Below, in pieces: positions 1-55,262 of a stretch of 64,000 nucleotides of DNA. The stretch covers positions 14,008,198 to 14,072,197 of the forward strand of contig NC_087377.1 in NCBI RefSeq assembly GCF_963675165.1, written 5' to 3'. A program made the translations under genes and the position numbers. The notes beneath the pieces were generated by a model. That model saw only the letters and a program-made list of their open reading frames with translations, searched no databases and was not told the DNA's origin. The DNA is from Halichondria panicea (lineage: Eukaryota; Porifera; Demospongiae; Suberitida; Halichondriidae). Numbering within the stretch: position 1 is the first letter of the stretch; each line of letters starts with the position of its first letter.

Positions 1-1227
1 AACGACTGGCTCCTACTCGAACAAAGCAAGCTGTCTATTACGTTTTTTATAATAATTTTTAGTTATAATAATTACATGACTGTGTATATAATTATATCCT
101 TGTAAAATAAATAATTTAAGTTGATTGTAGTTTGTAGCCCAGATGGGGGGGATTTGAACATACATAATTCAACTGCTATATCAAATCCCTGTCCATACTG
201 CAAGTGCAATGATCAGCACATGCATGAGCAATAATTATGTCAAGTCAGCCCGTACTAGAGTATAGGTGGGGCTTGCCTTAATAGTCTATAGGTGCTAACA
301 GGAGTACATGAATAGGAGTAAGCAACTACTATACAGCCCATACAAACGTGTTGTTAATATCTCACTGTGTCATGCCACGTCATACTATGCATGTGTAAAA
401 TGCCCACATCTCAAGTGGCCTACGTACAACCACTGTGTGGTTAATACATGCATTGTGCAAGCACACTTGGTAGAATAGGTCCAGGTGGCTAGCTCTTGCA
501 CAAAAGGAAGAAAAGCAAAGAAACATGAACACAGCAAAGCAACTGTGATAGAAGTTGCCAAAAGCTTGCTATACTGAATAAAATAATCTAGCATTGGTGA
601 GAAAATTAACTGAAGAAGTAGAGAAGCTACCACAACTAGAGATGTACCCTGAGAGAAAACAGGTTTTTAATATAATCTCTAAGGAACAGGATGATGGCTT
701 GGTGAAGCTTGCAGGCTGCCTGTGCAATTAATTTTACATCAAGTGTAAAGGCAAATTTAAATGCATACTTAAATTTTCAAATTCAGTGGTACGATTTCCT
801 ACGTTGCATTGCATCTGGGGTAGAAATAAAGCTCTCATAGACTCACAAGTAATCGACTCAGACTATGAAGAAACTCCTACTTTTAGTGCATGGGCATCCC
901 TTGTTACTGCTGTGTCTCTCAAGGTTGACGTTGTTTCCTCAGACACACAACTTGCAATATTCCATGACATTGCAAGTAAGAGATGGAGCAACTTTAGCAG
1001 CTTGTCGCACCTCTAGTTTAGTTCTCTCTATACACGGTAACCCGGCACCACACACAATGCTAACTGCTTTGCATTGCATCAAACATGTTATTCAGCAAAG
1101 ATTAGTTACCAATTTCATGGTGAACAGCCAATTCCGTCTTTTTCTAAGGTTAAGCATTCTCTAGATGCTGAGTAGATCTAGATCTATGCTATTCTCTAAG
1201 TCTTGTATATAGTTTCAGCCTAGCCTG
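1..1227. other. intergenic, no gene recognised
   Basis: AT-rich sequence with several short open frames on both strands. None has a recognisable domain, a signal peptide or plausible splice partners. The frames around 786-1164 overlap each other and look like chance. No RNA gene was seen. Confidence 0.4.
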
Positions 1228-1815
1228 CACTAGCCTCAATCCCAGGCCGCACTTCCCACTAGGGAAGTGGGCCTGGTATCGACTGCTTGCGCATGCGCTA
1301 ATATCCCCCCGGTATCTGGGGGCTTTGGATAACATCGTTTATGCTCAGTAAAACTATGACATCACAACGAAAGGAAGTGGATTGAAGGAAGTAGATAGAA
1401 AGTTCGATTGAAGGTTTCTAGCCCATCGGATAGCATTCTCTGATAGCTACCCTTAGCCTGCTATGTTAACAAAAGACTCACAGCCTGCAACAGTGTGGAT
1501 GACGATCGTCTGAAAGGAGTGACGGCTGATAAGAGCCTATATGGACAGACAGGCCACGCCCATTTAACACTAACTGTGGTGAAAGTCTACTATACTGCTA
1601 CTGATTCTATCAGAAGAAAATAGCAGTACAACAAACCTACACAGCTCTGTCTCTAGCTAGCTAGCTATATAGCTCTGTGTATGACTTTTAAGATATTTTC
1701 TCTGATGTATCCAGTATTATAGGAATATTTACGGGAAGAAAATCCAATAATTTGGCGCATGCGCAAGCAGTCGATAGCAGGCCTTCTTTCAAAGGCCAGT
1801 GAAGGAGGCTAAGCC
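1228..1815. repeat. MITE-like element with inverted arms
   Basis: The palindrome-rich block tatcgactgcttgcgcatgc at about 1278 reappears inverted at 1755-1776. Outer parts (cctcaatcccaggccgc on the left, gcaggcc and aggctaag on the right) resemble a short inverted-repeat family seen elsewhere in the window near 8320, 37890, 45750, 51290, 57813 and 59975. There is no coding capacity, so it is read as a non-autonomous DNA element of about 590 bases. Confidence 0.6.
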
Positions 1816-1963
1816 TGCACATGCACTTTCACTCTTGTTCTAAGTGAGCCTACCATGCAGCCATACATGGTCATGTGTACTGTACACAAAGTAACCACAA
1901 TTTACACTACTACATGTGTTTGTGACGTAGTGAGATAATAACGAATTTATATGGTGTACATAC

Positions 1964-2694
1964 CGTACCCTCGCGAAAATACGCCCACCCTTTTTTTGCA
2001 AGAAGTCTAGGTTTATTAGGGGACTGGGCGTTTAATCGCGAACAGCGAGTTTTCATTCGAATATACGCCCACCCGCGGCCTCAAATCGAGGTTTACACTT
2101 TGCTCTATGCCAATTCTTTATTAATAAATTTATTGTATTTTCATTTTAATACATAGTATGAACATTTTATTGACAACAATGTTATAAACTAATGCATGAG
2201 TATGATTAAAGCATGACAAGAGAATGAACATGAAGAAGTGGACACTGACTCTATTCGTTGCTTGTTGATGTTAGATGTAGCTCGAAGGATGGTAGGTCAT
2301 ACTCCTACAGAGCAGCTATCAGGTACTTTGTTTCAGAAAACCAAGGCAAGATAATCTGCAAAATTAGCCTGTGTGATAACTTTCTTGGACTTTGTGTTTT
2401 CCTTTCTCAGCATATAGGACTACTTGTTCCCTGCATATACATCTTCAGGGGCAAACAGATCCATACAGAGAAAGTTACATGTCTGATCTTGGTCCAGCAA
2501 GGAGTATAGTCTCACTAGCTACTAAAATTAATAGTGAACATGTGGCATTCAGCTACTGCGCATGCTCAACTTCTTATTCTGGGTGGGCTTATAATCGAGT
2601 GAAAATACCCTCGCGTGCAAGAACTTCGAAGCAAAAGAGGGGATGGGCTAGTTGGGCGTTTATTCAAGATGGGCTTATTTTCGCGAGGGTATGG
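1964..2694. repeat. MITE-like element, TIR taccctcgcgaaaat
   Basis: The left end reads gtaccctcgcgaaaatacgc. The right end at about 2668-2692 carries its inverted form, gcttattttcgcgagggtat. Internal partial copies of the same end occur near 2055 and 2605. The short frames inside have no recognisable domain. Probably a non-autonomous DNA transposon of about 730 bases. Confidence 0.65.
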
Positions 2695-2974
2695 TAGTAG
2701 TTCTATTCATGTACTCCTGGTGCTAATTGTAGTGTTACAATACAGACCCCCAAGTTTTCAGGATTTGCAAGACAAGACAGGAAATACATACCACAAGTAT
2801 TTTAATGGTTTCATAAGGATGACATACAAAATTTTTTAATTATATAATGAGATTCATAATGATGACACCCAAAAACTCTAGTGATATTTCTGGATTTCCA
2901 AAGCTCATAACACAGACCATTTACTGAACTAGAACCTGTTATACTAGGAAATAAAATTAATTAGTTCAATATGG
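2695..2974. other. intergenic, nothing recognised
   Basis: AT-rich stretch between two repeats, with no supported gene or site. Confidence 0.3.
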
Positions 2975-3548
2975 AATGTATTGACTCAGCAAGTTTGGAC
3001 TGGATTGAGATAGTGAGAACAGCTTGGCAAAAACTCAAAGTTAGCTCATTTTCAATAATCTCTGTGGTTGGTGGAACTCATGGCTGCATATCTCCAGATA
3101 TTAATGGAACCAGCGACTGCCTAACTAGTGCATCTGATGCATGTGCATGCTTTGCACCAAACAAGAAGGCTTGAAGCCATTCATGAAGTGTTCTATGCTA
3201 TTGCCGAGTTGTGTATTTATATAAAAGTTTGTGTATCTGCTTTGCAAACACCATTCATTTGTATGGCATTTACCTTGAATATGTTGTTATTTAGTTTATT
3301 TGTTCGACCAATTTTTAGCTTGCTACGTTGATGGTGAACAGTTTGCTCAAAAACTTAAACTTTCCGCAATCGTTTTACACAAATTTATGCCAGTTTGACC
3401 CAAATTCATATTTAAAGTGTTTATCGTATGTTAAACTGTCTTTTTACATATTTCAACTTAGATAGCTCTAAAAACCTTTACTTTTATCAGAAAAAGTGTT
3501 CTCATTTATATTTTCATGAGGCTATTTGGGGTCTTAGGGCAGACTGAT
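2975..3548 (+). repeat. dispersed repeat upstream of receptor gene A
   Basis: This block is closely matched in the same orientation by 48885-49473, which lies upstream of the receptor-like gene at 49.5 kb. Both copies begin near tcagcaagtttggact, share the core tggttggtggaactcatggc and end near gggcagactg. The open frames in it do not stay intact between copies, so it is probably mobile DNA or a duplicated 5' flank, not coding exons. Confidence 0.6.
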
Positions 3549-3607
3549 AGGGGTTTTCCTAAGGAAAATTCCCCGGCCCGCATGTAACTACGTACTAATC
3601 ACCACAG

Positions 3608-5538
3608 AAACATCTTATTCATCTGGGTTACATTGTCCTGGTTGTAACTGCACACTTGACAGCTCAGTCTCAAGGTGGGAAATCAAAGCGTCACTCGTGC
3701 ATGAATAGTTGATCTTGTTGTTTCCTTTTGAAGGTACAAATCCATCAGTCACACTGATTGTTGAAGGAGGAGAGAGTCTGGTTGGTGAACACTGTCCTGG
3801 AACTGTCAAGATCTCATGCATTGGAGTCGACTTGTCGATTTTAAGGTGGAGATTCAATGGGAGCACAGATGTAGTAACATTTTTCTCCGACAATGTGGCA
3901 CGTTCTCCATTCACAAATAATCCAGCATTTATAAGTGCCGAGCTACTGTCTACAGCACCAGATCAACTAGATCCAAACTTTGCTAACTTTTCTTCAGAAC
4001 TTGTTGTAGATGTGTCAAAACTAAAGACGGAGAGTATAACAAGTATTACTTGCGGTGAGCCAGATACTTTCAAAATGATTCCAGTGGATATTGAAATTAT
4101 ACAACAAACTGAGCCTGAGAGTCCCAATGGAACTAATGTGAAAATTCTCTATGAAGATGGATCATTGACAGATGTCACTGTTTCTTGGGAAAAACTGGTG
4201 AGCTATTAACAAGAGAAAAGTTTTAAATGAAATAATGTTTTTTCGCTGCAGGAAGCACGTTGTCCAGTATTTCAGTCTTATTTAGTTTATCAAGTTCAGT
4301 TTGGCTCTAGTGTTGTTGCAATAAATCACACAAGCTGTGGAGAAGTGTGTATCGTCAATTTTCAGAATTTTTCTGATGCTTCTGAGGGGTATAGGGTATC
4401 ACTATCTGCTGTGAATGTAATCGGGGCCAGTAAAGTTGTGGAACATCCAACCCTCATCGGTGTGTTTAACGCTAAATACATTAACACAAACTCAATCATG
4501 TATGACCCACATTTCCTTGTGCATATATAATTAAGCAGGTTACTATTCTATTTCAGTGAAACAAAGCAGCTTCTACTTCACACCTACCTTCCTCTCAAAC
4601 GACTGTCTGTTTGTTTGCGAGTGCTTCTCAAATAGAAGTCTTGATACAGACAGTTGCAATGTGTTGTACACGACTGACTCGATGTACAGGGATCCAACGA
4701 TAATTGTTTCTCCACTCGATACACAATTTGAAATAGCTGAAATAACTTCTAACACAGTCTATTATTTTGAATTCTCCGTGTCTGTGAATGGCACTCTGCT
4801 TGTTAGGAACAGACTTACTGAAAAAGCGATATCAAGTGAGTAACACACAATTATAGACGTTAACTACTGAATCTTCACTGTTTCAGGTCCGAGGTTCAGT
4901 GCAGTGGCTATTGTTTTCCTTGCTCTAACTATTTTGCTTATCACTGTCGGAACAGCATTTGGTATTATAGGTACATTATAATGTAAAGTTGCCTAAACTA
5001 CCTTGCACATTTTTGCAGTTATCTGTGTTGCTAAGCAATTGCAATTGCAAGGGGTTCTAGCAAATATTGTTTTGTTTATGGTATGTCTCTTGGGAATGTT
5101 GAGCTTGATTTTTCTTATTGTTTTCTCTATTGTCACTGGTGTTCAACAAGGTAAGTTTTTACTGAGTTGATTTTATTTTATAAGACGTCTCTCTGTAGAC
5201 ACATGCAGTCTGGATTGGATCAGAGCACATGATGCATTGGTCATTGTGGCCTTTCTGTTTGCTCTATTTGGAAATGCTCTTCTGGTCTGTTTCCTGCTTG
5301 CTTCTTACCAACAGAAAAGTAAGGCATCTTTAATTTTTAAATTAATGGCAATAAATTTAATTCGTGCCTGTGCCTGTTGTCAGAGTTTGGCCAGATGAAT
5401 TTACAGCGTAGCCAAAACGGTTCCCAGATCAACATGCATAGGTAGGTATATAATCATAGTATATATAGCCGTACAATTAATATTTTTGATTTCCTCAGTA
5501 ACACCATATTCTCAGGACAAGCAGACACAACAGCTGAG
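3608..5538 (+). CDS. gene A, receptor part: Ig/FN3-like ectodomain and three membrane segments
   Basis: Proposed exons are 3608-3674, 3734-4197, 4252-4459, 4557-4835, 4887-4970, 5019-5150, 5199-5318, 5384-5441 and 5499-5538, all with GT..AG introns and matching phases. The first encodes a hydrophobic leader (IHLGYIVLVVTAHLTAQS) but has no ATG. An acceptor at 3607 after tactaat suggests an upstream start exon that I could not find. Exon 2 holds an Ig-like domain (EHCPGTV, ISC, LRW, ITC). Exons 3-4 are cysteine-containing FN3-like segments. Exons 5-7 each give one membrane helix, which would place the C-terminus in the cytoplasm. Gene F at 61.4 kb has the same exon layout and similar sequence. 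The frame runs straight on into the PX-kinase exons, so this is probably the N-terminal half of one protein. The ligand is unknown. Confidence 0.8.
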
Positions 5539-5593
5539 GTTAGTATATAGTTGCTTTTCTATCAAACATATTGTGCATGCGTTGCATATATAG

Positions 5594-8500
5594 GATTTGA
5601 CTAGCAATTCCAAAGCAAATCCCAAGAAGACGAACACCGCTTCAGTGCCCAAAGATGTAGTAGCACCTTCAGAGAATATAGACGGAGAGCTGGAGTCTAG
5701 TCCAAAGAAAGGCCCATCATCTGCGTCTAAGAAATTCACTGTCTACAAAGTTGTAGTCACTCTTGAGGATAGGTCATACTTTGTGTTCAGAAGGTGATTA
5801 ATGCTGTCCTTTGTTAGATCATGATGTTAGATATATCGGCATTGCAGATACAGTGAATTTGAATTCTTTTTTGGCGAAATTAAAAAGGAGTACCCATCCT
5901 TGGATAAACTGACATTTCCAGGGAAGAAAGTCTTGAAGAAAAAATTCGATCCGAATTTTATCGAAGAACGTCGCATCGGGCTACGTGATTTCATTATCAA
6001 CCTTATGAATGTATGCTTCAATGTAAAATAGACAGTGATGAAGTATAATTTTAATCAAACACACCTGCAGATCCCCAACATTCTAGAATATCTCCCGGTT
6101 CGTGAATTCTTGGCCATCGATGACCCACGTTCAGCACTCCCCATCAACGACATGCCGGCAGCCGAACAGAAAGTGAAAGAGGCGGACAGGGTGGAGCTTG
6201 GTAAGAAAGAGGACACCACTGCCAAGATCACTGACCTAGACTTGCTCAAAGTTATTGGGAAGGGAACCTTCGTGAAAGTAAGTATAGCTTGTGAGAGTTA
6301 GTTTACAGAAATTATTAAAGCCTGACCTCCCATGCAAAATGTTGCTACAATTTAAATCACCTATCAGGGCTCGAAATTACAGTCTGACAATTAACAGACA
6401 AACCCGGTTATCATGTGCACGTGACCGATCATTTCACGTGTTAGTCACACATAGAATACATGTAAAGCTAGCTATAGCCAGAGAGCTAGCTGTTCAGTCT
6501 AGCTCTAAGAGGCCTTGTCAAAAGTGCTCAGAAGAACCTACGAAAATATTAAGTGTGGATAAATGCATCAGTAAAGAACTACAAACTGCCTCATGGTTCA
6601 AGTACATAGAATGTAGTTTGCTCTCTCTCTCTTTCTGGCTGGTGAGTTTTCTCTCTATACGAAGTTTCAAGATAAGCTATCCCGCCTAAGAAACTTTTTG
6701 ATGGCTCAAGAAATCTTTGAGCGTCCAACCAGCCTCATACACAAAACTAATGATTTTGTGTGTGTATGCCTGATTTTGTAGAAATTGTATGACCAACTTT
6801 AATAATTATTATGTTGAATGCATGTCTGAACATGTTGTCAAATCAAAACATTAATTGGACTGACATTTGACAGGCATGCAAATATTTTAATTGCGAGCCC
6901 TGCCTATTGCCACGGTCAGGTTTAGCATATTTTGGCCCAGCCCGGATCTTTGATGTACAGGCACACATATAATTATATATATATATATAGCACAGGTTAA
7001 ACTCTTAAGGTTACGGTCAATCGTTTTGCTCATTAATTATTCATGAGCTAGATCTAGTGATCTTTTCCAGCTAGAATGAGCTGGAAGTCCAGCTGAAATG
7101 CAGTAGTCATTTCATGGTTCGAATACACATTTTTACTATAAAACTTAGGTACAGTCTACTGTAGCTTCACTATATGCAGGGCGGGTCGAAGAGATATTTC
7201 GAAAAAAGGCTACTGAAAGCTCACAAGAGGCTGTTTTCCTTGGCTCTGGCCGCAATTTTAAGTGAAGTTAGTCTACATATTATTATTAATTTTTGTGAGA
7301 GTTTCTTGGCCTGGAAAGAAAAAACGCTTTGACCCGCCCTCCAGAATGGTAAGAAGCATCATATAAGAGAAAGAACACAGAGCTAGAAGTGTTTTTGGAA
7401 GCTTAAAATGGCTACTAGTTTGTGTTGTTTCTAGTAACTTGAAGATTGCTCAGAGCTTCCACTGGAAAATGTTTTGAAGACTAATACTTGTCATACAGGA
7501 TGATACACCAATATATTTATCATGTATATGCTTCAAACTTTTATCACGGCATGTATAGTTTCACAAAAATCATTTGCAGTAACTGTAGGGTATATACATG
7601 TATCTCTAGCCCATTAAGTGGGCTAGTATACTCGGGTATATTAAGGACTGGGACCAAAGGAGGTTGGTCACGATTGTTAATTAATCTTCTAATTTTCTTT
7701 GTAACCTCCAATTCCGTGGAAACTTGCAGAGAAAGTAGCTATCCTAGCTAAGCTAAAAGGCTGCAAACGATCATAGCCTTTTATACCAGTAGGAAATGAT
7801 GCTAACAATACTCAGTGACCCTAGAAAGTGAGTAGCATAGTCATACTCGAGCCAGAAACTAATACTATTAGTCACAAAGTTCCAGTTGTTGCTGCACTTT
7901 CCTTGTTTTTTTTCCTCCTGTCTTAGATTGGCTGGACCAAGATTATATAGCTATAATTATAGGGTAGAGCATAGTTTAGCGATGCTGCATGTATGCAGCT
8001 TGCACTATAGTGACTGGCAAGAATCTAGTAAACACTGTATGCACTGTTAACTCGCCAGAATAGAGGGGATCGGGTTGGTTAATGAAAGATTTATATCCAA
8101 AGAAGCCAGAGAGACACATAAAGTTTGCACTTAGAATTAGAAAATTAGAAGATTAATTAAAAATCGTGACCTTCTGGTCAGAGTCCTATACCTGGTCATA
8201 GTGTCCCTCGGTCCAGAGAGTCTTGCAAGGGTTGATGTATACGCTACGAATAGCTGGAGGCCTTATTTAATAAATGATTGTTCTTGTGGCGGGTTTATAG
8301 TCACTGCATGTAAGAGGCTAGCCTCGATTCAAGGCCGATTAAAATACGGCCTGGTATACCATTGCAAGGGTGATAGTGAGCATGCACTTCAAATTACCCA
8401 GAATATGGGTAATCGTACTACGAACGTAGTTAGTTCATTTACTAAGACCGTAATACTTTATCTCTATGACTGAGTTCCGTGAAGCTGTGACTTATGCAAT

Positions 8501-11500
8501 CTATTGCATTGGTGTAGAAGGCTTGAACACTAGTCTAAAGACAAAAGAGGCTCTCGTCTACGTCTACGATCGTCCTATAGCCAGGTTTTGTTCGCAAATA
8601 GCAGTTATAAGAGGCACCATACACTTCCCATAGACTGTACACATCCAAGCTAAAAGACATCCTGACCATACAGCCATCATAGAGGTAGACGAGAGCCTCT
8701 TCTGGCTTCAGACTAGTGTGAAAGCCTTCTGGAACAACGCAACAGAGAGCTAAGCTGATGTACAGTGCAACAACCAAAGAAAAGTTAATTTAGAGTATAG
8801 ATATATTTTTTTTACAACTTTTTCACAGTTTGCTGCATATCTTTTGAAGTTTAGGTGATACACAGCAAAAACACATAATTATGTTATATGAGATGCATCA
8901 TCGTATTTTAGTGTTAAAATGACAGAAATTTATGTCATTTCTACACGAAATTTCAAAAGATGCGTTTCATTTAACATGTTTTATGTTACTGTAACGAACA
9001 TGTTTTTACTGTGATGATCTATTTGAGTGTAGGTACTGAAAGTTCAACTATTGGCGCTTCCATTGGACCACCATCTGTTACATCATAATTATTATGACAT
9101 CATTAATATAAAATGGCTGTCTGAAGATGTGTACCTCTGAAAATAATTATGTTAGAAATAGAAGTAGCTTATTTGTTTGAGTTTATTGTGCATGTATACC
9201 TGATTATAATTATTGCTCCTTCAACGGAAGTCTGGGCTAGTAGTAAGTTCTGCACTTTTTAGTGGTAAATAATTACGTTAGGAATACATGCAACTTTCAT
9301 TTTATGCTAGTTAAGGTCTGATTTTTGAGAAGCATTTACTACAATAGCGTAAAATTCATTTGCACTAACTTACAGGAGCTAGACAAGTTTCTTCTTTGCT
9401 AGAGCGGCCCTTCTTGTCAAAAATGGTGATTTTGCTCCGTTTTGCTACTTTTTACTGACGTAGCAATTGATTTATGACATCACAAATCATCTTGTTGTTA
9501 TTTGCTACATCCAAAGGTCATGTGATGTCTACCTGCAACTACACAGTTGGGTCATTCTGTGTCACAGGGGCAGCATGGCAATTGAGCTTACTACATAGCG
9601 CAAAGTCATAAAAGTGACAAGATGGGCCGCTCTAGCCTAACTCGATCCTGTAAGTTAGTACAGATGAAAAGTACACTTAGTACATGCTGCTCAAAAATCA
9701 GAACTTAACAAATATAAAATCGAAAGTTGTATTCCTAACATAATTATTTTCCACCAAAAAACAACAAAATGCAGTATTTCTCAGAACTTACTAGTAGCCC
9801 AGACTTCCGTTGAAGCTTAAAAGTTTGAACAATTAGGTACATGCTCAACAAATTTCAGATCTTAACTCAAAGAAATAAGCTACTTCTATTCCTAACATAT
9901 TTTTGGAAGTACACATCTTCAGACAGCCATTTTATATTGATGATGTCATGTATTGTAACAGGTGGTGGTCCAATGGAAGCGCCATGCAATTGTTGAACTT
10001 TCAGTACCTGCATGCACTCAAATAGATCATAATTATCACTTTTACTTTGGAAGATATGCCACAAAATGTAAAAAATGTGTACCAAAAAAATCTACTCTCT
10101 TTGGTTGTTGCACTGTACATAGAAGAAGAGAAAGAAAAAGGGGATTCCCCATATTCTGGTGAATAAACTAACGCATGCGCACTATCACCCTTGCAATAAG
10201 TACCAGGCCGTATTTTAATCGGCCTTGAATCAAGGCTAGTAAGAGGCATATAGTTAAAGAAAGTTTGGCTTCGCTGCATGTGGAATGATAAGTGCATGCA
10301 TGATGGTTTAAAGATTCTTGTGTTGACGTACAGCAAATTTAAACCTGTATGTGATCGACTATTCAACACCACTATATATATACCACTATCAAATGATTGA
10401 TTTTCGATTCAACCCGGATATATAGCCTCGCTTCGCTCGGAATAATTAAGTCGTGCCGGACATTTATTCAACAGATTGCTTTATAATCGTATTATGTACT
10501 CTTTAATGCTATATCACCATGCATCACACAGCAAAAACACAGAATTATGTTATATGAGATACATCATCGTATTTTAACACTAAAATGACAGAAATATATG
10601 TCATTTCTACATTAAATTTCAAAAGATGTTAACATGTTTTATGTTACTGTAACGAATGTGTTTTTACTGTACATAATAGTGTACCCTGTCACACGTACCA
10701 CACACTCTAACCACATGCACATACCCTCCCCATGCTTTCACAGGTCTACCTGGGTCGACACAAGAAAACTGGTGCTTTCTATGCCATCAAAGTCCTGCAA
10801 AAGGAAGCAGTCGAACGCAGCGAGTTTAAACTCATCATGGCCAGGAGAAGCGTCGCAATCCACCCATTTCTAGTAGGCCTACAGTGCTCCTTTCAGACGA
10901 GGACCAAGCTATACTTTTTGTTGGACTATGTGAATGGTGTGAAGTTGTTCTTTCATCTGCAAAGGCAGAAAAATAATGTGTTCGACGAGCCTATTGCAAG
11001 GTGAGTATAGTCAGACACCAGTTATTATTAAATGCTAAGCGGCTTATTAATATTTTAGTTAGCTGCATAGTTTAAACTACAGCTTGATCAGTCTGTTGCT
11101 GCTCCTGACATAATAATGATCAACTCTATACATACATGAAGTGTAGTATATATAGCCTTCTAGCAAGTTACTATTATGTGTTGGTTTTTGAATTCCTGAG
11201 TGTCGTACAGTGTCATGTCTGAAACGTTGCTAAGGAATGGACAAAGAAATTCAGCAAGAGCATAACTCAGATTCCTTTTTCTCAAAAAGCGGCCTGGATT
11301 CGAGCTGGTTCAAATAAAGGGTGTGGTCTCTTACGCACCTACGCAACACTAGAACCACACCCTTTTCTTTTAAAAAGGTGTGGTGTCTATAAGATTTCAT
11401 TTCACAGATTTGGTTCGACATTTCATGGAATATTTCGGATTTCAGCTTGTATACGAGATCTGCATGTGTAGCAAGTGCTATAGATACTCATAGCAAGTCA

Positions 11501-14500
11501 GCAAAGACTTGAACTTCTGAATCACACAAAGTAATCACACAAAGTAAACAACATAGATGTACACTGTTACTTCAGCTATATACTGTTCTTAGGTACTCTA
11601 GTACATATAATATTATAGATAAACCCTTTCCTGGCTTTAATTAAAACAAGAAAATACAGAATAAATACACGTTTTTCTTTAAAAATCCATATCTCATGAA
11701 CCATACATTGAAATGACTCGTAACTATTTCCTACAGGTAGCCCAGACACCATGACATCATCATCGTTACCTAGCAACTGACCACCCCCAACTAATTAGCA
11801 ATTGTTTCCAAACATTCACAATTATGTACACAAACAATATTGTATGAAAGCACAAAGTGACTATAGACACTAAGTAAGTGTTCTCAATGTTCTCACGGTG
11901 ACATGGTTCGATCAGGATCTGCCGAAACTTCTCTGCCAGGTCGTATCAGCAGACGCCCTTTTCCCAGGAAACGTTTTCTTCACCGGCCTACACACAGGCT
12001 TACAAGTTCAATGGTGGCTCATGATGTCCACTACTGTACTAACTAGTCTAAGCAAACCTATACTGAAGCTATCACAATACAGTCTGTTGTACAGATGCTA
12101 CTTTAGACTTACCAGATCCATAAACTTGGTCCGACATGCACCTTCATGCAGGCTCCTCATGCTCTTTATTTTCTAGCTTGAGGTAGCTTCCTACCTAGCT
12201 ATGATCCCAGTCACTGTCCTCTCACTCAACAAGGACATAAACATTGACATTTTCACTGTCTAGCAGCTCTAAAACTTCACTGAGGTTGTACTACGAAGAT
12301 CTTGAAGACTAAGTCATCATCAAACGGTCACTTTTCTTTTGACAGTACTGGGCAAAGCGCACCTCAAGGCAAGATATTGAAAATACCACGTAAAAGAGCA
12401 GCTCAATGCGCATGTGCCGGTACCTACAGCGTGCGCATAGCTCCAACACAGCCCGCACAACGAAATTTTGAAAAATCTCGGTAGCAAGGACGACATATGT
12501 CGTCTAAAGCCGGGAAAGGGTTAATGCTTGTAGGGTGCATGGAAAAGGAATGCGGAATGCGGACACGAAAAGCGGAAACGGAAATATCTTAGCTGTCTAA
12601 AGTTAACAACCATCACCATTCTGTGTTTTTTTTTACACAGAATTCATGGTAATGCATGGTGAGCAAAAAACACAGAATGGTAATTATGCCTATAGGTGTG
12701 CGTGCGCGTGGTGCGTGTGTATGTGTGTGTGAGTGCGTGCGTGTGTGTGTGCAGCCATTAATTTGAGAGACTTGGACTTTTGGCATCGATCGTTTTTAAC
12801 AACAATCATGGTCGATCATTACCCACTCCTTGAGTTTGCATGCATGCAGCAATGCAAAAATTCATCATTATGATAATTATAATGTGTGTATAGCTTTGGC
12901 ACCTAGGATTTCATATTATAATTGCTATCTTGCATGAGAAACAAAATGTCATAAATGAAAACATGAAGAGCTGCTTTAGAGACACTCTGGGAGAGGGCTT
13001 GGGCTCAGGCTGAGCTTTTCCAGCTTTCTCGAGGATTTCTCATTGACTTCACAGTCAACGATTGTCAAGAACTGGTTCTAAAACTGTGGCCTGCGTACAG
13101 TGAACTGTCAATGCCCCGTGATGAAAGAGCCTTACGGAAGGAGGAGGTAACGTTTAATTTTGGGGCGAACACGCATAAGCGAACTCTGTATTTTACAATA
13201 ACTTGTAATTTTGTGACGTATAATTATATGGTCCAAGGCCAAAAAATAACAAATTAGGGCCCCGAACGTGGGAACAAGAAATCATGATCGACCATGATTG
13301 TTGTTAAAAACGATCGATGCCAGTGCCAGTACAGTGTTGCTCATTTGGGAGCCCTGTAGCAGAGGAGGGTGGGGCATTAGGGGGTGTGGTATGATGGATA
13401 CGCACCGTCTGATACACTTGCATATAGACGCAGTTATATGTAGAGGATCATGCTGAGCTTAATAATACTCTCTAGTAGTTGCAAAGCTCCACCGAGGCAT
13501 CAGCACCTGCGGTGTTTTCATTAAACCAATGAATATAAACATGAAAGTGAATGAAGTAAACATGAAAGCACCTTGTCTCAAGCTACCTTACCTATAGTTG
13601 CTCCTTGAAGCTAGATAGATTAGATAGGCTTCCCCACAGCATCGCTTTACAAATACGACTGCGCCTACAAATTTTCTCTCATGCTTTCATGTTCATTTTA
13701 TTCATCAGTCAGAATAGTATAATGGTCGTTAACTTTAGACAGCTGAGATACTTCCGTTTCTGTTTTCCGTTTCCTTCTTTTCCATGCACCCATGCTTGCA
13801 TGCTTCATAAATTATCTTGTTGAGGCTGCTGCATGAGGAAGATATCCCATGTGTCGAACTTAAACTCTTCATCACTACTCTGATTTGACCACATGCACTC
13901 ATTCATATACTGAATATTTTGTAGACACTACTAGATATTGTCAAGGGCGTATAAAAGAAGAGAGAGCATGCAACTCCACTATCAGTACACGTATAGCTAT
14001 ATAGCAGAGTTCAAACGTGTGCGGAGGAATGTGTGCATTTGCATGAAGTGCTAAAAATAGAAATTTCTATTTTTAGCAAATCATGCACAGTCATGCACAT
14101 TCATCCGCCCACGTTTGAACTCTGCTCATGCATTTGGAGTTGCATGCCCTCTCTTCTTTTATACGCCCTTGATATTGTAAAATGGCTCTTGTCTGGAATC
14201 TCTTTGCTCAGCTTTAGAAACATCTCTTCACTTCAATTTAGCAACCTAGGCAACCAAAACACGTTCAATATAAAACCTTACCATGAATGAATAATGGCTT
14301 TAATTTTTGCCACATCGTCTAACATTATAGTATTCTTAGTACATAATGGCGTGCAAGTGAAAATTTATCTGACGGCAAAAGGGTTAAAAAATGCTGAATC
14401 AGCAAATAAGCCTAGCGATTATAGCAATGAAAGTACCGCAGGTGCTGATGCCTCGGTGGAGATGCCAAAGCTACATAACATAAAGCTAGCCTGCTAATAG

Positions 14501-17168
14501 CTTTGCTATTAGTATAGGGTGTATGGAAAGAAGGGAAGGAAACGAAAACGAAAATGGCATAGCCCGAGGGATGAGGGACACTATAACCATAGATACATAA
14601 ATCAATGAATAAATAAACGTGCAGAAGAGTAAAACCAAAAACCGGACAAGTCCGATGAAGACTACCAGTACTGTTTAGATGGCTAGGTTCAGCCATTGCA
14701 GCTTTATCTCACAGTCGATGTTTGCAAGGGTCTTACTTCTCCAACATAATTACAATGCTGCCTGACGTCATCTGTTTAGTACTTGCTAAAGCTGGATGTA
14801 TTCAAGTTCTCAGATTCTCTCCTATATATACCTGCTTTTCCATGTACTCAACTTTCAAATTCAAATAGGTTCACTTCATTCACTCTGATCGACCAGGAGC
14901 GTGGGAAGCATGCTCTGGAGCACCCCCTTGTCTCAAGCTACCTTACCTAGATAGGTTTCCCCATGCACAGCACCCCTTCACAAATACATCTTCCTACAAC
15001 TCTGCTCTCAACTAACTTTCCATGTTCATCAGCATGCAGTATTCATGTGAAAAAATACAGAATGGTAATGGTCGTTAACTTTACACAGCTGAGATATTTC
15101 CGTTTTTTCCGTTTTCATTTTCCGTTTCCTTCTTTTCCATGCACCCGCTTTTATACACAATTCACATTAATTTTTTGCAATTTTGCTGCATGAACTCAAA
15201 GTGTGGGTAATAATCGAACATGATTGTTGTTAAAAACGATCGATGCCAAACGTTCAAGTCTATAATTAATCGGGTTGTATCATCAGAGCCTTGCAGCTCT
15301 CTTCTCACTCTTTCTTGCAGCTATCAATAGCTAGTGTTCTAGTGCAGAGCTAACTACTAAGTAGAGTAGCAATACTCGGTAAACAAGTTTGGCTACGTGC
15401 TCTTCTGAAAAGGCTACAATGGCATTCCAAGTAAGCAAAACTAGGCATAACTCGAGAACAAAGCATTATTTTGCAAATCCACGAATTAAATCCAAAAAAA
15501 CATGACTAGAAGCCTATATACTTGCACTTCATTGATCCTTGAGCAGCGGGGTAGTCTCATGGATCAGCCCCCTCCTAAGAAGGGGTCTGAGCACTCTTGT
15601 CTTGAGGTCATTTCCCAATGGAATGTGCCAGACCAATGGAATGTAATCAATTCCTGACCTTACGCCCGCGTATTTGTTAATTATGCCTCGAGGTGTAGCC
15701 GCACGAGGGATACGGTAAAGTGTGTGTGTGTGTCTGTCTGTGGGTGGGTGGGTGGGTGGGTGTGTGTCTGTTCCAGCTGTAACTGCTCAACGGTTGCAAT
15801 GCGACGAAAACAAACAGCTTCTATAGGCTTCTAGCCACGTTCTCTTGGATTTTGATTCGTGGATTAGTAAACTAAAGCTTCTTTCTCAAGTTATGGCTAG
15901 TTTGACTCACATTGAAGGCCTCTAAGATTATTCATTAAGCCATCAGATAGGCTTCTGTTTCCATTCAGCTCCTCTCCTATAATGACTGTGTGGAATTCAA
16001 TTCTGTCAACAATTGTCAACAATTGCAATCAACAATTGCAATCAACGTAACATATATCTCTTCACCTCTTCTAATAGTTTTTGAGCGAAAGCAAAACAAC
16101 AGCGAGAGGCATTAGCACAGCACAGCTTGCACCACTCGTTCGTTTGGTCAGTGATCGGTTCGTTATGGCAAAAATCGAATTATTGGACAGTATTTTTCAA
16201 ATGATTACTGTTCCAACTGGAAGTGACCTGGCCTATCCAAATGTTCGCTTGTTAATTGTTACATGCATGGCCACCATTATAAAGTAGGAAAATTAGTTTC
16301 ATAATTTGTTCGTGCATTACACGACCTTTTAACAGGCGCACTTTGATGTCTAACGGAGTTCGGCGACTTGCTGTATAAGTTTTAAAGTGGCCGACAGGCC
16401 CTTAAAAACACTCTTACAAAAACACTCATACAATTGCAGCTATTAAAATAAGGTCATGCACTACTGCCATGCTCAAACGTGTTATTATTTACCCGTTACA
16501 GATTCTATGCTGCCGAGATCACCTCTGCCCTCGGGTACCTGCACAGTCTCAATATTATCTATTGGGATCTCAAACTTGAAAACATTCTACTAGACGCTAA
16601 CGGCCATATCATGCTAACAGACCTTGGACTCTGCAAAGAAGAGGTCAAATTTGGAGAGACAGTAACAACTTCTGGCAGCCCCAAATGCCTAGCCCCTGAG
16701 GTGCTCAGAAAGCAAGAGTACGGTTACAGCGTCGACTGGTGGTGTCTGGGCGTGGTAATCTATGAAATGATGTACGGGCTGCCACCGTTTTATTCTGAAG
16801 ATGTTACTGAATGGCACAACAATATTTGTCGTAAGTCATTACAACTTCGGAATCTGCCTAACATCACTCCCAGTGCTCGAGGCCTACTCGAAGGTTTGCT
16901 GCAAAAAGACAAAAATCATCGATTAGGAGAGAATGGTGATCATAACGACATCAAGGTTCACTCATTTTTCAAGTCCATCAACTGGGATGCCCTGTTCCGT
17001 AAGCGATTGAAGCCTCCGTTCAACTCTCCTCCGGTAAAGGATACCCTCAAACTTGGACATTTTGGGTCCGAGCTTATTGCCGAGGCTATTTCTGGCGCAC
17101 AGAAACACGGGACAGTGCGTGTGCCATGTGTGAGCATTGCTGAAGACACTTTTAATGTAATGAACTAG
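5594..17168 (+). CDS. gene A, cytoplasmic part: PX domain plus SGK-like AGC kinase
   Basis: Exons 5594-5793, 5848-6010, 6071-6277, 10744-11000 and 16502-17168. The PX domain ([31 protein letters not shown]) and kinase domain closely resemble SGK3/CISK, which binds PI3P on endosomes and acts downstream of PI3K/PDK1. Retained: the Lys of YAIKVL, catalytic Asp of YWDLK, metal-binding Asn of LEN, Asp of DLG, and APE. Altered: glycine loop GKGTFVKV (third Gly is Val), alpha-C Glu replaced (IMARRSV), YRD to YWD, DFG to DLG, activation segment one residue shorter ([12 protein letters not shown]), and the protein ends at DTFNVMN, before the hydrophobic-motif Ser/Thr. No in-frame ATG precedes the PX domain and the upstream intron is only 55 bases, so a separate kinase gene is unlikely. 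It may be a pseudokinase or a weak enzyme. Together with the receptor exons it totals 2946 bases (982 codons with stop). Confidence 0.85.
7645..8186. repeat. MITE-like element
   Basis: ggactgggaccaaaggaggt followed by cacgattgttaattaatctt at 7645-7700 reappears inverted at 8140-8186 (gaagattaattaaaaatcgt, then gaccttctggtcagagtcc). It is about 540 bases and non-coding. Confidence 0.7.
8519..8729. repeat. short inverted-repeat element
   Basis: The arms 8519-8565 and 8684-8729 are inverted copies that include gaggctctcgtctac and gtagacgagagcctc. The loop has no coding content. Confidence 0.6.
8763..10115. mobile_element. foldback MITE, ends cagtgcaacaaccaaag, TA target site
   Basis: The ends cagtgcaacaacc and ggttgttgcactg are flanked by TA on both sides, as in Tc1/mariner or pogo-type insertions. 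Long internal arms are mutually inverted: tactgaaagttcaactattg at about 9035 against the region at 9990-10010, and the agagcggcccttcttgtcaa block against its inverse near 9620. A second copy lies at 23880-25120. Neither encodes a transposase, so mobilisation in trans is likely. Confidence 0.8.
8861..9012. mobile_element. 150-base MITE, ends acagcaaaaaca / tgtttttactgt
   Basis: The sequence from acacagcaaaaacacata to tgtttttactgt is absent from the corresponding place of the related foldback element at 23.9 kb. A close copy stands at 10507-10663. The ends are imperfect inverted repeats, and a small palindrome (gacagaaatttatgtcattt) lies inside. It is a small element that inserted into the larger one. 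Confidence 0.65.
10507..10663. mobile_element. second copy of the 150-base MITE
   Basis: Nearly the same sequence as 8861-9012, including ttatgttatatgagat and the terminal acagcaaaaaca. It lies about 80 bases before the kinase N-lobe exon of gene A. Confidence 0.65.
12540..13800. repeat. inverted-repeat element family, copy 1
   Basis: Outer arms contain ggaaaaggaatgcgg..gttaacaaccatcaccattc near 12540-12620 and, inverted, atggtcgttaactttagaca..ccgtttccttcttttccatg near 13722-13790. A nested inverted pair uses ggcatcgatcgtttttaaca at about 12781 and tgttaaaaacgatcgatgcc at about 13303. It resembles two nested non-autonomous elements. Parts recur at 14515-14560 and 14935-15250. Confidence 0.55.
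13941..14172. repeat. near-perfect hairpin element
   Basis: tcaagggcgtataaaagaag at 13941 pairs with cttcttttatacgcccttga ending at 14172. The pairing continues through gcatgcaactcca and cagagttcaaacgtg to a central ctaaaaatagaaatttctatttttag. The whole 230 bases could fold as one stem. The end motif reappears weakly near 58625. Confidence 0.75.
14930..15250. repeat. inverted-repeat element family, partial copy 2
   Basis: cttgtctcaagctaccttac, tggtcgttaactttacacag and tgttaaaaacgatcgatgcc recur here in the same order as at 13571-13790 and 13303. This indicates duplication or independent insertion of related elements. Confidence 0.5.
15683..15860. repeat. dispersed repeat with GT/GGGT microsatellite
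   Basis: gtagccgcacgagggatacg, then gtaaag, then a GT-rich tract and ctgttccagctgtaactgct. The same arrangement occurs at 63858-64000, where it runs off the window. Confidence 0.7.
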
Positions 17169-18973: not shown

Positions 18974-21900
18974 GTATAATTGTGAACGGAGTAGAGTGTA
19001 TAATAAAAATCAGTGTCTTTTTGTATACCCCGAAACTGTTCTGGGTGCAAGCCACGTTCAATAATACCTTTGATGCCGTGGACAGCGGAAATAGTCTCGT
19101 CAGAAGCAGCTAGAATAAATAAATTAAAACACAACACTGTGACTGGAATTTAAACTATAACCTTTGACTTCCAGAGTGCTTACAGCCTTGGGTACTGGTT
19201 TACTCGCTGGTTTACTCTCTCCTCTGAGTTTCATTTTGAACCCTGAAAGATTGGATGATTTTTATGCCACATAATTATAAGCACATTCATTAATGCCTTG
19301 GACAGCGGAGGTAGTCTCGTCAGAAGTAGCTAAAATAGATTAATTAAAACCACAACACTGCACGTGACTGGAAATTTAACTAACCTCTTTTGACTCCCAG
19401 AGTGTCTTCAACCTTGGGCGCTGGCCTTTTAGACCCTGAACATTTGTATGACCTTCACACCAATACGTATGGGCATATTCGATACCTTTTGCAGATGTAA
19501 GATCTGTGCCATTGGTGGTCGTCTCGGCAGAAGTAGCTGGAATAATGAGATACATTAATTAAAACACAACACTGTGATTGAGCAACATAAACAAACATTT
19601 GACTCCCAGTGTGCCTACAGCCTTGGGCACTGCTCTTCTGAGAGTCCTCTTGGGTTCTGAAAATTGTAAGACTTTTATGCCACGTGTATTGGCATACACG
19701 TCACTGATACCTTTGATGCTCTTAACAGACGTAACACCTCTAGTCTCGTCAAGAGTAGCTGGAATAATGAGATACATTAATTAAAACACAATACTGTGAT
19801 TGAGCAACATAAACAAACATTTGACTCCCAGTGTGCCTACAGCCTTGGGCACTGCTCTTCTGAGAGTCCTCTTGGGTTCTGAAAATTTGTAAGACTTTTA
19901 TGCCACGTGTATTGGCATACACGTCACTGATACCTTTGACGCTCTTAACAGACGTAACACCTCTAGTCTCGTCAAGAGTAGCTGGAATGGGACTGGGCAA
20001 TGAACCTTTGACTCCTACAGTCTTGGGCGCTGGTGTACCCCCTCTTCCGATTGTCATATTGGGCTCTGGAAATGGTATGACTTTCATGTATCAGTATGCC
20101 ACGTATATATGTACGTAAAATAATTATTGGGACATTAATAGTAATACCCTTCGCAGACGTAACACTAAGAGGTATTAGGTAGTCATTAAACAAACCTTTG
20201 ACTCCCAGTGTACCTGCAGCCTTGGGCATTGCTTGACACCTTCTTCTTAGCGTTCTCTTGGGCTCTGCACAATTGTAAGACGTTCATGCCACATATATAT
20301 ATTATGTACACAATAATGCACATTTCGAAATCAGATACCTGTGATTCCCTTTGTAGACGTAGAGGTAGATCTTGTCTTGTCAGCAGTAGCTGGAAAATTT
20401 GCTACATAAACACAACACGGGAAGGGACTGGGCAAAAAACTAACCATTGACTCCTACAATCTTGGGCGCTGGTGTAGACGTAGAGGTAGATCTTGTCTTG
20501 TCAGCAGTAGCTGGAAAATTTGCTACATAAACACAACACGGGAAGGGACTGGGCAAAAAACTAACCTTTGACTCCTACAATCTTGGGCGCTGGTGTATCC
20601 CCTCTTCTGGGTGTCCTCTTAGACTCTGAAAATTCCGGGTGTGAATTTCGCTTAAAAATATGCACATCAAATACCTTTGACTTCTATCCCAGACACGTCA
20701 TCCTCACCATCAGACATAGTCGTGGCTACATAACGAGTGACTCAAATTGAACATAGGGTGTAAAAGTTAATTGTTAATTATACCGCTTAGACTGGTGCTA
20801 GCTTCTTGCTGCTCAGTGAGATAGCCCAGAGAAGCTGCAGTCTTATCAATATAAATACCAAATGCATGAGCATATCTAAACTTACCAGACTTAGAACACG
20901 TCGTATGCTCATCTGAAACAGTACAACCAGAACCTACAAATAATTTTTAATTATGTATGTGCGAAAATAAACTTGTATACTTACACTGGCAGCATATCCA
21001 GAGGATGGAATCATCTTCATCTAACAGCACATCATCAGGAATCGGAACGCAGCCTTCATGATACCACATGTTACACGTGTCGCAGGAAGCCATCGGCAAA
21101 ACCTCCGTTCTTCGACATAAGCAAAACAACTCAACCGATTTTCTGTGGACAAGCCGCCTTTTCTCCTTGCTATCTCTTCTAGTTGAAAATACGGTGAGAG
21201 TTGGTGGTTCGCTCTCGAAACATTCTTTCAGGTGAATTCGCATACTTGATTGATCATAACTGCTTTTGAAAGGATCGATTCTTGAACACAAATCTGCAGC
21301 CATAGCGATCGCATACAGTCCACAATCATTACATCCTATCTGTTTTTGAACATTAACCACGTTGATGGTCACAGAATGCTGTTGAGACTTCAGAATTGTG
21401 CAAACTTGCTGAGCTATTGATCCTGATGCGGTGGGGATGGTATGCAGGGAGTCGTATAAATCAACACTTCCTTGTTCAGAAAATACATTCGAAACACAAG
21501 CCCAGTGACAGTCGTTAACACATAAAATCTGCACAAATTCATCTGGAACTGACAGCCAGGTCTTCCTATCTCTTAGGTATGACGTATCTAAAAGACCGTT
21601 TTGTCGAGGGTACCTTTGCTTAAGCATGTACTGAGCTGCACTGATATGACTTGCAGACAACCATTTGCCATTCGTTAGAGTGTCTTCATCATCCTTTGTA
21701 AGACATAATGTGTGTATCCATTCAGTCAAGTATGGATCTAAGAGAAATATATAGATGGTAAAAGGCATCAATTAAATTAAAATACTTACTATCACTTTCA
21801 GCTGGGACAAGTTCAAGAGGTCATAACCACAGTTCGTGGAATTGCAAGGGCCTGAATTATCTAATTGTACCGTGGAGAGACAGATATATAGACTTAAAAT

Positions 21901-23657
21901 AAACAATACAAATATTCACCTGTCTTCTGAGATGGCACTGTAGTTTTCTTCTTCTTCATCGGTGTTTTTTTCTTTTGTTCTTCCCGCTGAATCTTTTTCT
22001 CTTCACGCTGAATCCTCCTCTCTTCTTTCTGTCGTTCAATCTCCTTTTTCTCCTTCTGTTTTTTCTCTGCTGATTCAATCCACTGCTTACTTGTAATCAC
22101 TCGACCACCTGATTTGTTTGATTTAGGAAGGTTACTTGGTGGCTTGGGAAAATCTAACGTGTGCCCAAGCGGTGAGACATAGGGCAGTGGCTTTGCTGGT
22201 GTAGCAAGGTGTGCTGGGTTCAATTTCTGTTTCATAATTGGCTCTTGGGTACGCAGACGAACAGGATTTCCATCTGCTATGTGTGTGGAGATAGGACTCT
22301 CGATATCCTCACTACCTATTGAAGAACGATAGGCAGGTTTTCTCTTAGTCTGCGGACTGTAAAAAGGAATATACGAAAGACCAGTGTTAGAACAAAGAGC
22401 CTCTGGTTTAAATTCCTTAAATTGCTCCTCTGGAAGAACAAATGCAGCTTCATTTAAGGGGTATACTCCGGTCACCCTAAAACCACTTTTTATGTTTTTG
22501 ATGGTCATTGCCTCGTCCCACGCTTCACACAGTAAAGAGGAGAAATCATAGAGCGTAATCACTCTCCCAGGATTTCTGACGAGAAATGAATGGCATACCT
22601 TTCTCCAACTGCTCTTTAAAGCTGAGAAGACTCCTTTGTCCAAAGGCTGAGATACCTGGGTTGTGTGAGGTGGGAGGACAAACAAGACAACTTGTTCACT
22701 GGCAGCAAGTTTAACCATGTCCGGGCAAAAATGTGATGAACACCCATCTAAGAGTAGTAGCAGAGGCCTCTCTGAAGGGGCGTAACATAGAAAATGGTTA
22801 ACAAACCAGTCATGGAACAGCTCCATATCCATCCAGCCATTTTTCGAATACCCATAATACGTGTTTGGAACTTCACCAACAGCAAGTTCAGTTTTCATCT
22901 TTCGATTGAAGATCACAAATGGTGGTATGCAGTCACCAGTTGCATTGACACAGGCAATAACAGTTACCTGAGATTTTGTATCAGAGGTGATACATGATAG
23001 ATTCTTCTGCCCTTTTCTGCCCACAACTTTGGGTGCTTTGGGTGCTAAAGGCATTCCGCTCTCATCACAATTGAAAATCAACCTTGGCTTATCAAGCAAA
23101 GTATTCTGAGTTAAAGTTTCTCGGAGCAGATCGAAATATTTGTTAAACGTTTCCCGACTCATAGCTTGAGCTCGTGGTTGGGCCAAAGGTGAGGGAGTAC
23201 GGAGAGTAATATGAGGCTGTCTTTCCCTAAATCGTTGCCACCATCCAGTTGACACCTCTTTCTCAATCCCTTTTCTCCAGAGATGTTGCTGTACAATGCA
23301 GATAACTTGTGTTCTAGTTCTGGGATATCCAATGGCTGCACAACCAATCAAAAAATGTGCAAGTTCCTCTTCTTCCATCGTCGTAAGATACTTCTCTGGG
23401 CCAGGTCTATTTGTGGAAACATTCTTACGGACTCTATCATAGAGAGTTGACTTGGGTACTCCGTAACGCTCTTGTGCTTGTCTGAATGAGAGAGTGTGGT
23501 TGGATACAGCTTCACATGCTAACCCCATACTTTTAGAGTTCGTCCAATCATGGTACACACGTGGTGGTTGTATTGTGGGTACTGGTGGAGTTGGATCACG
23601 ACGAAGATCGTGATCACGTGACCTTGCTCCAGATATTCTACAGTGCAAATCAATCAT
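18974..23657 (-). CDS. pogo/Tigger-like DDE transposase with C48 protease, PHD finger and repeated mini-exon tail
   Basis: The first exon (about 23657-21919) encodes a helix-turn-helix region (SFRQAQERYGVPKSTLYDR), a second CENP-B-like DNA-binding part and a DDE-type nuclease with Asp in FNCDESG, LLLDGCSSH and SQPLDKGVF. It ends in a charged KEKKEIERQ-rich coil. A small exon (about 21851-21790) follows. The next exon (about 21737-20995) gives a C48/Ulp1-like cysteine protease (His of NDCHWACV, Asp of VDLYDSL, Cys of GCNDCGLYA) and then a PHD finger (FCLCRR, CDTC, WYHEGC, WICCQC). Beyond it, down to a stop near 18974, alternate two short exon types, EPKRTLRRAVPKAVGTLGVK and ATLDETRGVTSVKSIK. 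The exon joins and the single-gene reading are inference, especially the donor after the small exon. Flanking inverted repeats suggest a mobile element that may still be intact. Confidence 0.75.
18990..20640 (-). repeat. tandem mini-exon array in the transposase gene tail
   Basis: About seven or eight copies of a proline/lysine exon alternate with about seven copies of a threonine/serine exon, spaced by 60-100-base introns. Units at 19559-19784 and 19790-19990 are nearly identical. A 116-base block at 20352-20468 is repeated almost exactly at 20473-20588. Copies further away are more diverged (PAPKTVGVKG, PVPKAVSTLEVK), which indicates stepwise duplication. Confidence 0.7.
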
Positions 23658-51134: not shown

Positions 51135-51290
51135 ACAAGTGTTTCTCTGACTGTTGAGGGAGGAGTGAGTCTGGTTGGTGAACACTGTCCTGGAACTGTC
51201 AGATTGTTGTCACGGAGTGGACCTCACCATTTTGACATGGTTATGCCAGACAGGGCCGTAGCCACCAGTCCGGTTAGTCAGGTTTCAACC
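51135..51290 (+). pseudogene. fragment of an Ig-like receptor exon
   Basis: VSLTVEGGVSLVGEHCPGTV is almost identical to the start of the Ig exon of gene E. It then loses frame (RLLSRSGPH), breaks off, and is followed by a MITE end (cctcgagaccaggccgatta). Confidence 0.75.
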
Positions 51291-53752: not shown

Positions 53753-55262
53753 TCAAGATTGAAACAGTTCATTGTCAACGTAATCGTACTCCACTCTTGC
53801 CAAACCATACGACTGATTCGCTTCCATGTTCATCTTGCCTCTTCTAGCTCCACTTCTTTTCAAAATTCCCACTTTATAGTAAGATAGGTTAGCTTTTAAT
53901 CTCATTTCTTTATCTGGTCGGGAACGTTTCTTCTTTGGCTTTCCATAAGACTCGTTAGGAATTGGTTCCTTTGAACTTACACTCGACTGTGTATAAACAC
54001 TACTGCCTATTATTGGATCATCGGCTTCACAATAAGAGTGAGTCAAGTCTTCATTTTGCTGTGCTGTTTCTGGATTTGAATAGACAACCTCCCGATCAAT
54101 TTCCCTTGATTCTTGTATTCGTATTTCTGGTGCATCCTCTCTCGGTTGCACTCTAGTCTCCGTTTCTCTTTTCAATTTTATGATGAGTAATTTTTTCAGC
54201 ACAATATAATATGTACCAACTCCCGTGACGAAACTGAGTACCAAAGAGAATATAAATACAACAACAGTAGTTGCTACGGTCACTCCGATAGATACACCAT
54301 TGGAACTGCTGTCTGTCACTGAAATCACAGCTGCTGATGTAAAGGCTCATGCATTCATAGAACTCACCTATAAAAAATATTATGTAGGACAGGATCACTT
54401 CTCCCCACGTTGTTGATAGCTTGGAGCTCCAACACGTAGTTACCATCTCTGGAAAGCGGGACAGTGAATGTGACGCTGCACACCATTGTACAGGTACCAC
54501 TATTAGTAGTTGAGATGTGATGATAATCATTCCCAGTTAGGGTGGCCTCATAGCGTATTTGTCGTCTAGAAGCAGGGCATGCCGCAACCTGTGATTGACA
54601 ATCATGCATGGATCAGATAAGGTATAAATGTATAGCCCCTGGGCCAGTATTGCATGGTAAAAATGGTATGGCTTACTGGTGGTTCCCATGAAACGGTCAG
54701 CATAACAGAAGCAGAAGATTTAAAGGATTTGACAATATTGATTTGTTGAGGGTTTTCTGATAATGCCTGTTGCCTTACCTGAACATCAATTGTGATTGTC
54801 TGGTGCGTTACCGGATCGCCGCATCTGATTTCATTAATGTGCTGCTCCTCAAGCTCTGAGATGTTGAGGGTAAGAGTTGAAGAAAAGTTCCCGAAATTTC
54901 GTTGATCACTCTGCAAAACTGAGCTCAACTCAACAGAAATAAAGGCTGGATTTGATACAGTTTGAGTAGAAATCATACTGTCAGGATAGAATGAATGAAT
55001 TTCTTCCTTAGTGACATTGTAACTCCAACGCAAACTAGTGAGGTCCACTCCCTCACAAAACAGTCTGACAGTTCCAGGACAGTGTTCACCAACCAGACTC
55101 ACTCCTCCCTCGACAGTCAGAGAAACACCCGCAACATGATTACATGCACTCAATGTTGCATAGCAAATCATGAAAACATGCAGGGATCTTACTAATTGCT
55201 CCGCTTTGTCCAACAGTGAAACACAGTAAGACAACACTCATTACCAAGTGAAATACTGCCAT
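53753..55262 (-). pseudogene. gene E: recent copy of gene D with splice and frame lesions
   Basis: Expected exons by comparison with gene D are 55262-55193, 55128-54677, 54588-54368 and 54318-53753. The coding sequence is very similar to gene D, including the signal peptide and tail motifs NESYGKP, NLSYYKV and NQSYGLA. Two differences matter. The acceptor before the Ig exon reads GCGG where gene D has GCAG. The T-run at the end of exon 3 has six T instead of five, which moves the membrane/tail exon out of frame. The tail also lacks seven residues before EYDYVDNE. If transcribed it would most likely give a secreted or truncated form. A pseudogene or a consensus error are the main alternatives. 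Confidence 0.75.

Follow-up and report, generated by a model that had tools for sequence, protein, structure and literature searches.

A receptor gene in a cluster on one chromosome of the sponge Halichondria panicea appears to continue, in a single reading frame, into a PX domain and an SGK-like kinase. We propose, with a probability of roughly 0.6, that this is one fused gene with an endosome-reading PX domain and an atypical or non-catalytic kinase, which was captured by the receptor cluster and then duplicated. Within this proposal, the exon order and phases, the frame-preserving indels, the purifying selection and the exchange of ectodomains are borne out by the sequence.

Gene model and related loci

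The gene lies in the window, the whole 64,000-nucleotide stretch that was analysed (G000:C1:14008198-14072197, within a 131 Mb assembly). A first-pass annotation had joined fourteen exons with matching phases into one frame of 982 codons, and chaining of splice sites reproduces this arrangement. Our model is the best-scoring chain of candidate splice sites from position 3608, with hand-set ranges round the exon edges, and it comprises fourteen GT-AG exons in one frame across 3608-17168, or 2946 nt and 982 codons including the stop (Table 1). Starting the chain at 3608 or at 3610 gives 768 open chains each, and starting at 3609 gives none; the two sets differ only in exon 1, and members of a set differ by small shifts of exon edges. 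The same chaining returns the receptor/PX intron at the length and junction first given for it (55 bases, 5538/5594). Ten other introns measure 48-97 bases, and two measure 4466 and 5501.

Table 1. Exons of the window copy and the intron between its receptor and PX parts
Feature	Position in window	Strand	Description
Exon 1	3608..3674	+	Hydrophobic leader-like peptide; no ATG; follows acceptor AG
Exon 2	3734..4197	+	First ectodomain exon
Exon 3	4252..4459	+	Ectodomain
Exon 4	4557..4835	+	Membrane-proximal ectodomain; c3 counterpart holds the ectodomain switch
Exon 5	4887..4970	+	Bulk of predicted membrane helix 1
Exon 6	5019..5150	+	Predicted membrane helix 2
Exon 7	5199..5318	+	Predicted membrane helix 3
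Exon 8	5384..5441	+	Juxtamembrane tail
Exon 9	5499..5538	+	Tail; matching tail of PX-less c8 ends in a stop
Intron 9, receptor to PX	5539..5593	+	55 bases; if retained, frame stops after VSI
Exon 10	5594..5793	+	Linker, then start of PX domain
Exon 11	5848..6010	+	PX core; RRYSEF straddles the exon 10/11 join
Exon 12	6071..6277	+	Last part of PX and linker, then glycine-rich loop of the kinase (GKGTFVKV)
Exon 13	10744..11000	+	Kinase N-lobe; ATP lysine kept (AIK); Arg at alpha-C Glu position (10843-10845)
Exon 14	16502..17168	+	C-lobe of the kinase with YWD (16560-16568) and DLG; C-tail lacks the hydrophobic motif; stop

Searching the genome with the kinase, receptor and PX parts locates two further complete copies, c2 (about C1:14224012-14236928) and c3 (about C1:14401363-14410211), 0.2 and 0.4 Mb from the window copy, each with 14 exons in order, the same phases and no internal stop. 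The c3 model was chained from exon 2 onward, and its exon 1 was set manually, guided by an alignment of the upstream region. A fourth copy, c4 (about C1:14472695-14474902), has exons 1-10 and then a stop inside PX. That three intact loci share the same phases makes the 14-exon arrangement more than chance. At E 0.001 the PX segment matches these four loci and, weakly, one locus on C17 (31% identity, E 5e-4); the genome contains 24 matches to the PX family in general.

The beginning of the gene is less regular. The model frame opens after an acceptor, exon 1 is preceded by an in-frame TAA (3596-3598), and no start codon was found in exon 1 or by upstream search in the window copy or c2. An in-frame ATG is present in exon 1 of c3 and of the PX-less cluster receptor c8, and a comparison of the upstream regions of six family members found no shared ATG exon. 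The 58 bases that lead into exon 1 align with c2, and two weaker matches (71%) lie about 3.3 kb further up. Some 3.3 kb of the window (about 247-3550) is absent from c2 and lies between flanks common to both, of which the upper are 71% alike; this stretch could have pushed the first exon or the promoter out of place.

Exon 2 has at least about 60 matches by eye count over 101 listed hits, all on C1 and mostly at 13.88-14.54 Mb. Two of the receptors in this cluster are used for comparison below: c8, which starts in the window near 61406, has no PX match at its locus and a short tail, read straight from sequence, that ends in a stop; c5, read as far as exon 7, likewise has no PX match at its locus. 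The exon edges of both were set by hand for the identity comparison and trees. Further members or fragments of the receptor family lie in the window at 27510-27974 (+), 34813-35914 (+), 41536-42033 (-), 51138-51240 (+, a fragment), 54683-55180 (-) and 61406-63486 (+). A 587-residue ORF at 21894-23657 (-), with DDE_1 endonuclease (E 1.8e-23) and HTH_psq (E 3e-9) matches, is by our reading a pogo-like transposase. Prokaryote and virus contigs scanned with two peptide patterns (49 and 93 pattern matches) yielded no confirmed relative, an absence that weighs little because those sets hold prokaryotes and viruses.

Ectodomain, PX domain and kinase

Hydrophobic stretches at residues 337-375, 374-412 and 421-449 of the window-copy protein agree with the three membrane helices that had been placed in one frame with PX and kinase. 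The accompanying description of the ectodomain as Ig/FN3-like finds no support: Pfam gives no Ig or FN3 match over cut-off (the best, Big_4 at E 0.013, is below its own), a PDB search with the ectodomain finds nothing up to E 10, and a structure model of exon 2 with four window paralogues has a pLDDT of 37 (34 for exon 14 alone). From the leader-like exon 1, the three helices and the lysines after the third helix, the tail should be cytoplasmic. The protein would be located at the cell surface, with an outward-facing and presumably ligand-binding ectodomain.

The outer part of c3 has a different affinity from the rest of the gene. In exons 2 and 3, its identity is 0.93 and 0.96 to PX-less c8, against 0.79 and 0.83 to the window copy; in exons 4-7, it is 0.93-0.96 to the window copy, against 0.74-0.85 to c8. 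A sliding comparison over 120 bases at a time locates the switch within exon 4, around c3 positions 4465-4525. The tree of exons 2-3 separates c3, c8 and c4 from the window copy and c2 (bootstrap 100; c3 with c8 alone, 72), and that of exons 4-7 separates PX-less c5 and c8 from the four PX-bearing copies (bootstrap 100; order within the four, 54-77). Judged by this identity switch and these trees, the ectodomain of c3 is of the type found in a PX-less receptor of the cluster, and the membrane helices and PX-kinase travel together as a constant tail above which ectodomains are exchanged.

By its sequence signature, the PX domain (Pfam E 1.2e-12, residues 543-620 of the window-copy protein) is SGK3-type. 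Its best PDB match is the SGK3 PX domain (E 5e-24), and the alignment retains RRY and RRxGL, which we take to be the PI3P-contact residues; the domain probably binds PI3P. The kinase (Pfam Pkinase E 6.6e-56, residues 664-910) is nearer in sequence to SGK than to AKT, PKC or PKA, with SGK1 as its best PDB match (374 bits, E 1e-110) and RAC-beta as the best non-SGK match (274 bits). The HRD motif, the alpha-C Glu, the G-loop and the hydrophobic motif are named here, and their roles understood, as is customary for kinases, and residues were assigned by alignment to SGK1 (PDB 2r5t). All three full copies keep the ATP lysine (AIK or TIK), the HRD Asp, the DFG Asp and APE, and the activation-loop Thr is probably kept as well. 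In all three, the HRD Arg is replaced by Trp (YWD) and the third G-loop Gly by Val, and the alpha-C Glu position is occupied by Arg in the window copy and Lys in c2 and c3, both of which have also lost the first G-loop Gly. Compared with SGK1, the three N-lobes are four residues shorter after alpha-C and the activation loops are altered; their C-termini are cut at the hydrophobic motif FxxFSY and end in DTFNVMN or DTFSVMN. The DFG motif reads DLG in the window copy and DFG in c2 and c3, and exon 13 of c2 contains 15 extra residues that nearly repeat their neighbours.

Elsewhere in the genome, Pkinase_C is matched at E 0.001 by a canonical SGK (C1:17683558) and six other loci, and by none of the fused copies. 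The canonical SGK exon (C1:17683573-17684238, minus strand), identified without its N-lobe, has YRD, DFG, TFCGTPEYLAPE and FAGFSYVP, and 5000 N stand upstream of it in the stretch examined. Five other AGC loci were set aside as AKT and PKC types by reading. A kinase-only relative at C1:14377425-14379523 (positions 7420-9524 of locus L006, G000:C1:14370000-14379900) consists of exons 13-14 with YWD and DLG, and no PX match was found upstream of it; the same locus also holds, at 2198-2478, an older remnant of exon 14. The first part of exon 14 (query residues 84-125) recurs as five short repeats of 76-78% identity at G000:C1:14077639, 14099133, 14159617, 14168451 and 14493423, three of them in L008-L010, each with a minus-strand receptor match no more than about 2 kb away.

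With the hydrophobic motif, alpha-C Glu, HRD Arg and G-loop Gly lost, catalysis is doubtful. The tail had been described as an SGK-type signalling module; PX and kinase are indeed of SGK type, but the loss of these four features in all three full copies speaks against an ordinary SGK signaller. Because the domain remains under constraint although several catalytic and regulatory features of SGK have gone, we favour a kinase that is atypical or non-catalytic.

A probable single coding unit and the alternatives to it

Three intact copies, frame-preserving indels and purifying selection argue that receptor, PX and SGK-type kinase form one coding unit, as the first-pass annotation had read them. 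Every distinct exonic indel among the four copies is a multiple of three (29 of 29, with exons 8-10 contributing 10 of 10), whereas the same holds for 9 of 44 intronic indels and 1 of 7 in the junction intron (exonic versus intronic, Fisher p 9e-13). The count leaves out introns 12-13 and, for c4, exons 1 and 10. Although choosing exon models to be open favours frame conservation, the chosen sites are nonetheless homologous between copies. PX and kinase are under purifying selection, with N/S over exons 10-14 of 0.55, 0.40 (window-c3) and 0.48 (c2-c3), differing from neutrality at p 1e-4, 1e-8 and 9e-6. N/S over exons 2-9 is 0.37-0.48. Exons 8-10 taken alone do not reject neutrality (p 0.08, 0.06 and 0.4), and dN/dS for exons 8-9 is 0.69-1.08 on 28-29 codons. 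When copies are compared, short introns resemble each other about as closely as exons do (0.81-0.98 for window-c2), so the copies are recent and similarity alone proves nothing; the one-gene argument therefore rests on frame and substitution type. That two further intact copies exist suggests a genuine single gene, not a pair of neighbours run together in the model.

It is improbable, in our judgement, that two adjacent genes were block-duplicated, one of them a receptor that ends because intron 9 is retained, the other a PX-kinase gene starting from an unseen first exon of its own. Duplicating a block of two neighbours would likewise preserve order, intron 9 retention yields a short receptor tail comparable to the end of PX-less c8, and in c3 PX is preceded by a Met (index 509), with one poly-A-like motif lying within intron 9. 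However, the codon just ahead of exon 10, in the exon 10 frame, is TAG in all four copies and the join is in phase 0, so the PX exon must be spliced to something upstream, and the tails read through a retained intron 9 are not conserved among the four (VSI, VSSCFYQNYCVCVA, a 32-residue tail and VR). As first noted for the window copy, no Met stands between the junction and PX, the next being at index 603; c2 too lacks a Met before PX, and AATAAA and ATTAAA are absent from exons 8-10 and their introns in the window copy, c2 and c4. For two genes, a hidden promoter and first exon would have to lie within the receptor gene or upstream of it. By a simple consensus, the junction intron's donor scores 19 (16-21 for the gene's introns) and its acceptor 6.5 (5.5-8.5). 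In c3 this intron is 188 bases long (L003 2392-2579), with about 130 inserted bases adjoining the acceptor, and the AG before exon 10 remains.

It is equally improbable that the window copy has recently become a pseudogene, with the fused family working elsewhere in the cluster. Its missing start codon, the unshared 3.3 kb directly upstream, DLG in place of DFG and the altered activation loop would fit decay, but the 982-codon frame is intact, c2 likewise has no ATG, and window-c3 N/S is no weaker than that of c2-c3. A fused receptor whose SGK is active and anchored at the membrane, is turned on when receptors cluster or PI3P is bound, and is altered by the lost motifs in regulation only, seems to us unlikely, though less so: the retained lysine, HRD Asp, DFG Asp and APE, the probable activation-loop Thr and the constraint on the domain are what such an enzyme would show, and set against them are the replaced alpha-C Glu, HRD Arg and third G-loop Gly, the absent hydrophobic motif, the loss of the first G-loop Gly in c2 and c3 and the 15 extra residues of c2.

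Proposed origin and comparison with known systems

Under our preferred reading of one fused gene with an atypical or non-catalytic kinase, an ancestral three-pass receptor of this chromosome would have gained SGK3-type PX and kinase exons downstream of exon 9, and the fused gene would then have duplicated within the cluster, with ectodomains exchanged above a constant transmembrane-PX-kinase half. The tail would meet PI3P on endosomes after receptor internalisation, and the kinase may work mainly by binding, as a partner or substrate platform. More tentatively, the clustered receptors could form a modular recognition repertoire of exchangeable ectodomains on a constant, three-pass, PI3P-reading, non-RD pseudo-SGK tail, in which a kinase serving largely as scaffold would read out the signal on the endosome.

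To our knowledge, animal receptor kinases are tyrosine or TGF-beta-type kinases. A PX-AGC receptor tail, if real, would build PI3P sensing and an SGK-derived domain into the receptor itself. The copies suggest a route, in which a soluble signalling gene is captured by a receptor cluster, loses regulatory motifs and is maintained by selection, and also a mode of swapping ectodomains above a constant tail. Among the literature matches listed, which exclude subscription papers and preprints, no title or abstract opening describes a receptor-PX-SGK fusion.

The closest known arrangement is that of SGK3 (CISK), a soluble kinase regulated through its activation loop and hydrophobic motif, in which PX precedes an AGC kinase in the same order as here. 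In the sponge gene, by contrast, PX-kinase appears to be joined to a three-pass receptor and has lost its hydrophobic motif, HRD Arg and alpha-C Glu. According to a study of SGK3, its PX domain reads PI3P, which activates the kinase allosterically, including on endosomes (PMC8318898). Multi-pass receptors with a C-terminal kinase, as here, are described in the accessible text on GPCR-TK and GPCR-TKL/K fusions of choanoflagellates and sponges, GPCR-TKs occurring in sponges (PMC12716839). As described there, those fusions combine 7TM receptors with TK or TKL kinases, whereas the sponge gene has three predicted helices and an AGC kinase; that text does not mention PX, and the term AGC is absent from its main part. 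For the kinase itself, EFR offers a parallel by analogy only, being a plant LRR receptor kinase of another kinase family: it is a non-RD receptor kinase whose HRD Arg is replaced, as in this kinase, and which is reported to function in immunity without catalytic activity of its own (PMC8463890).
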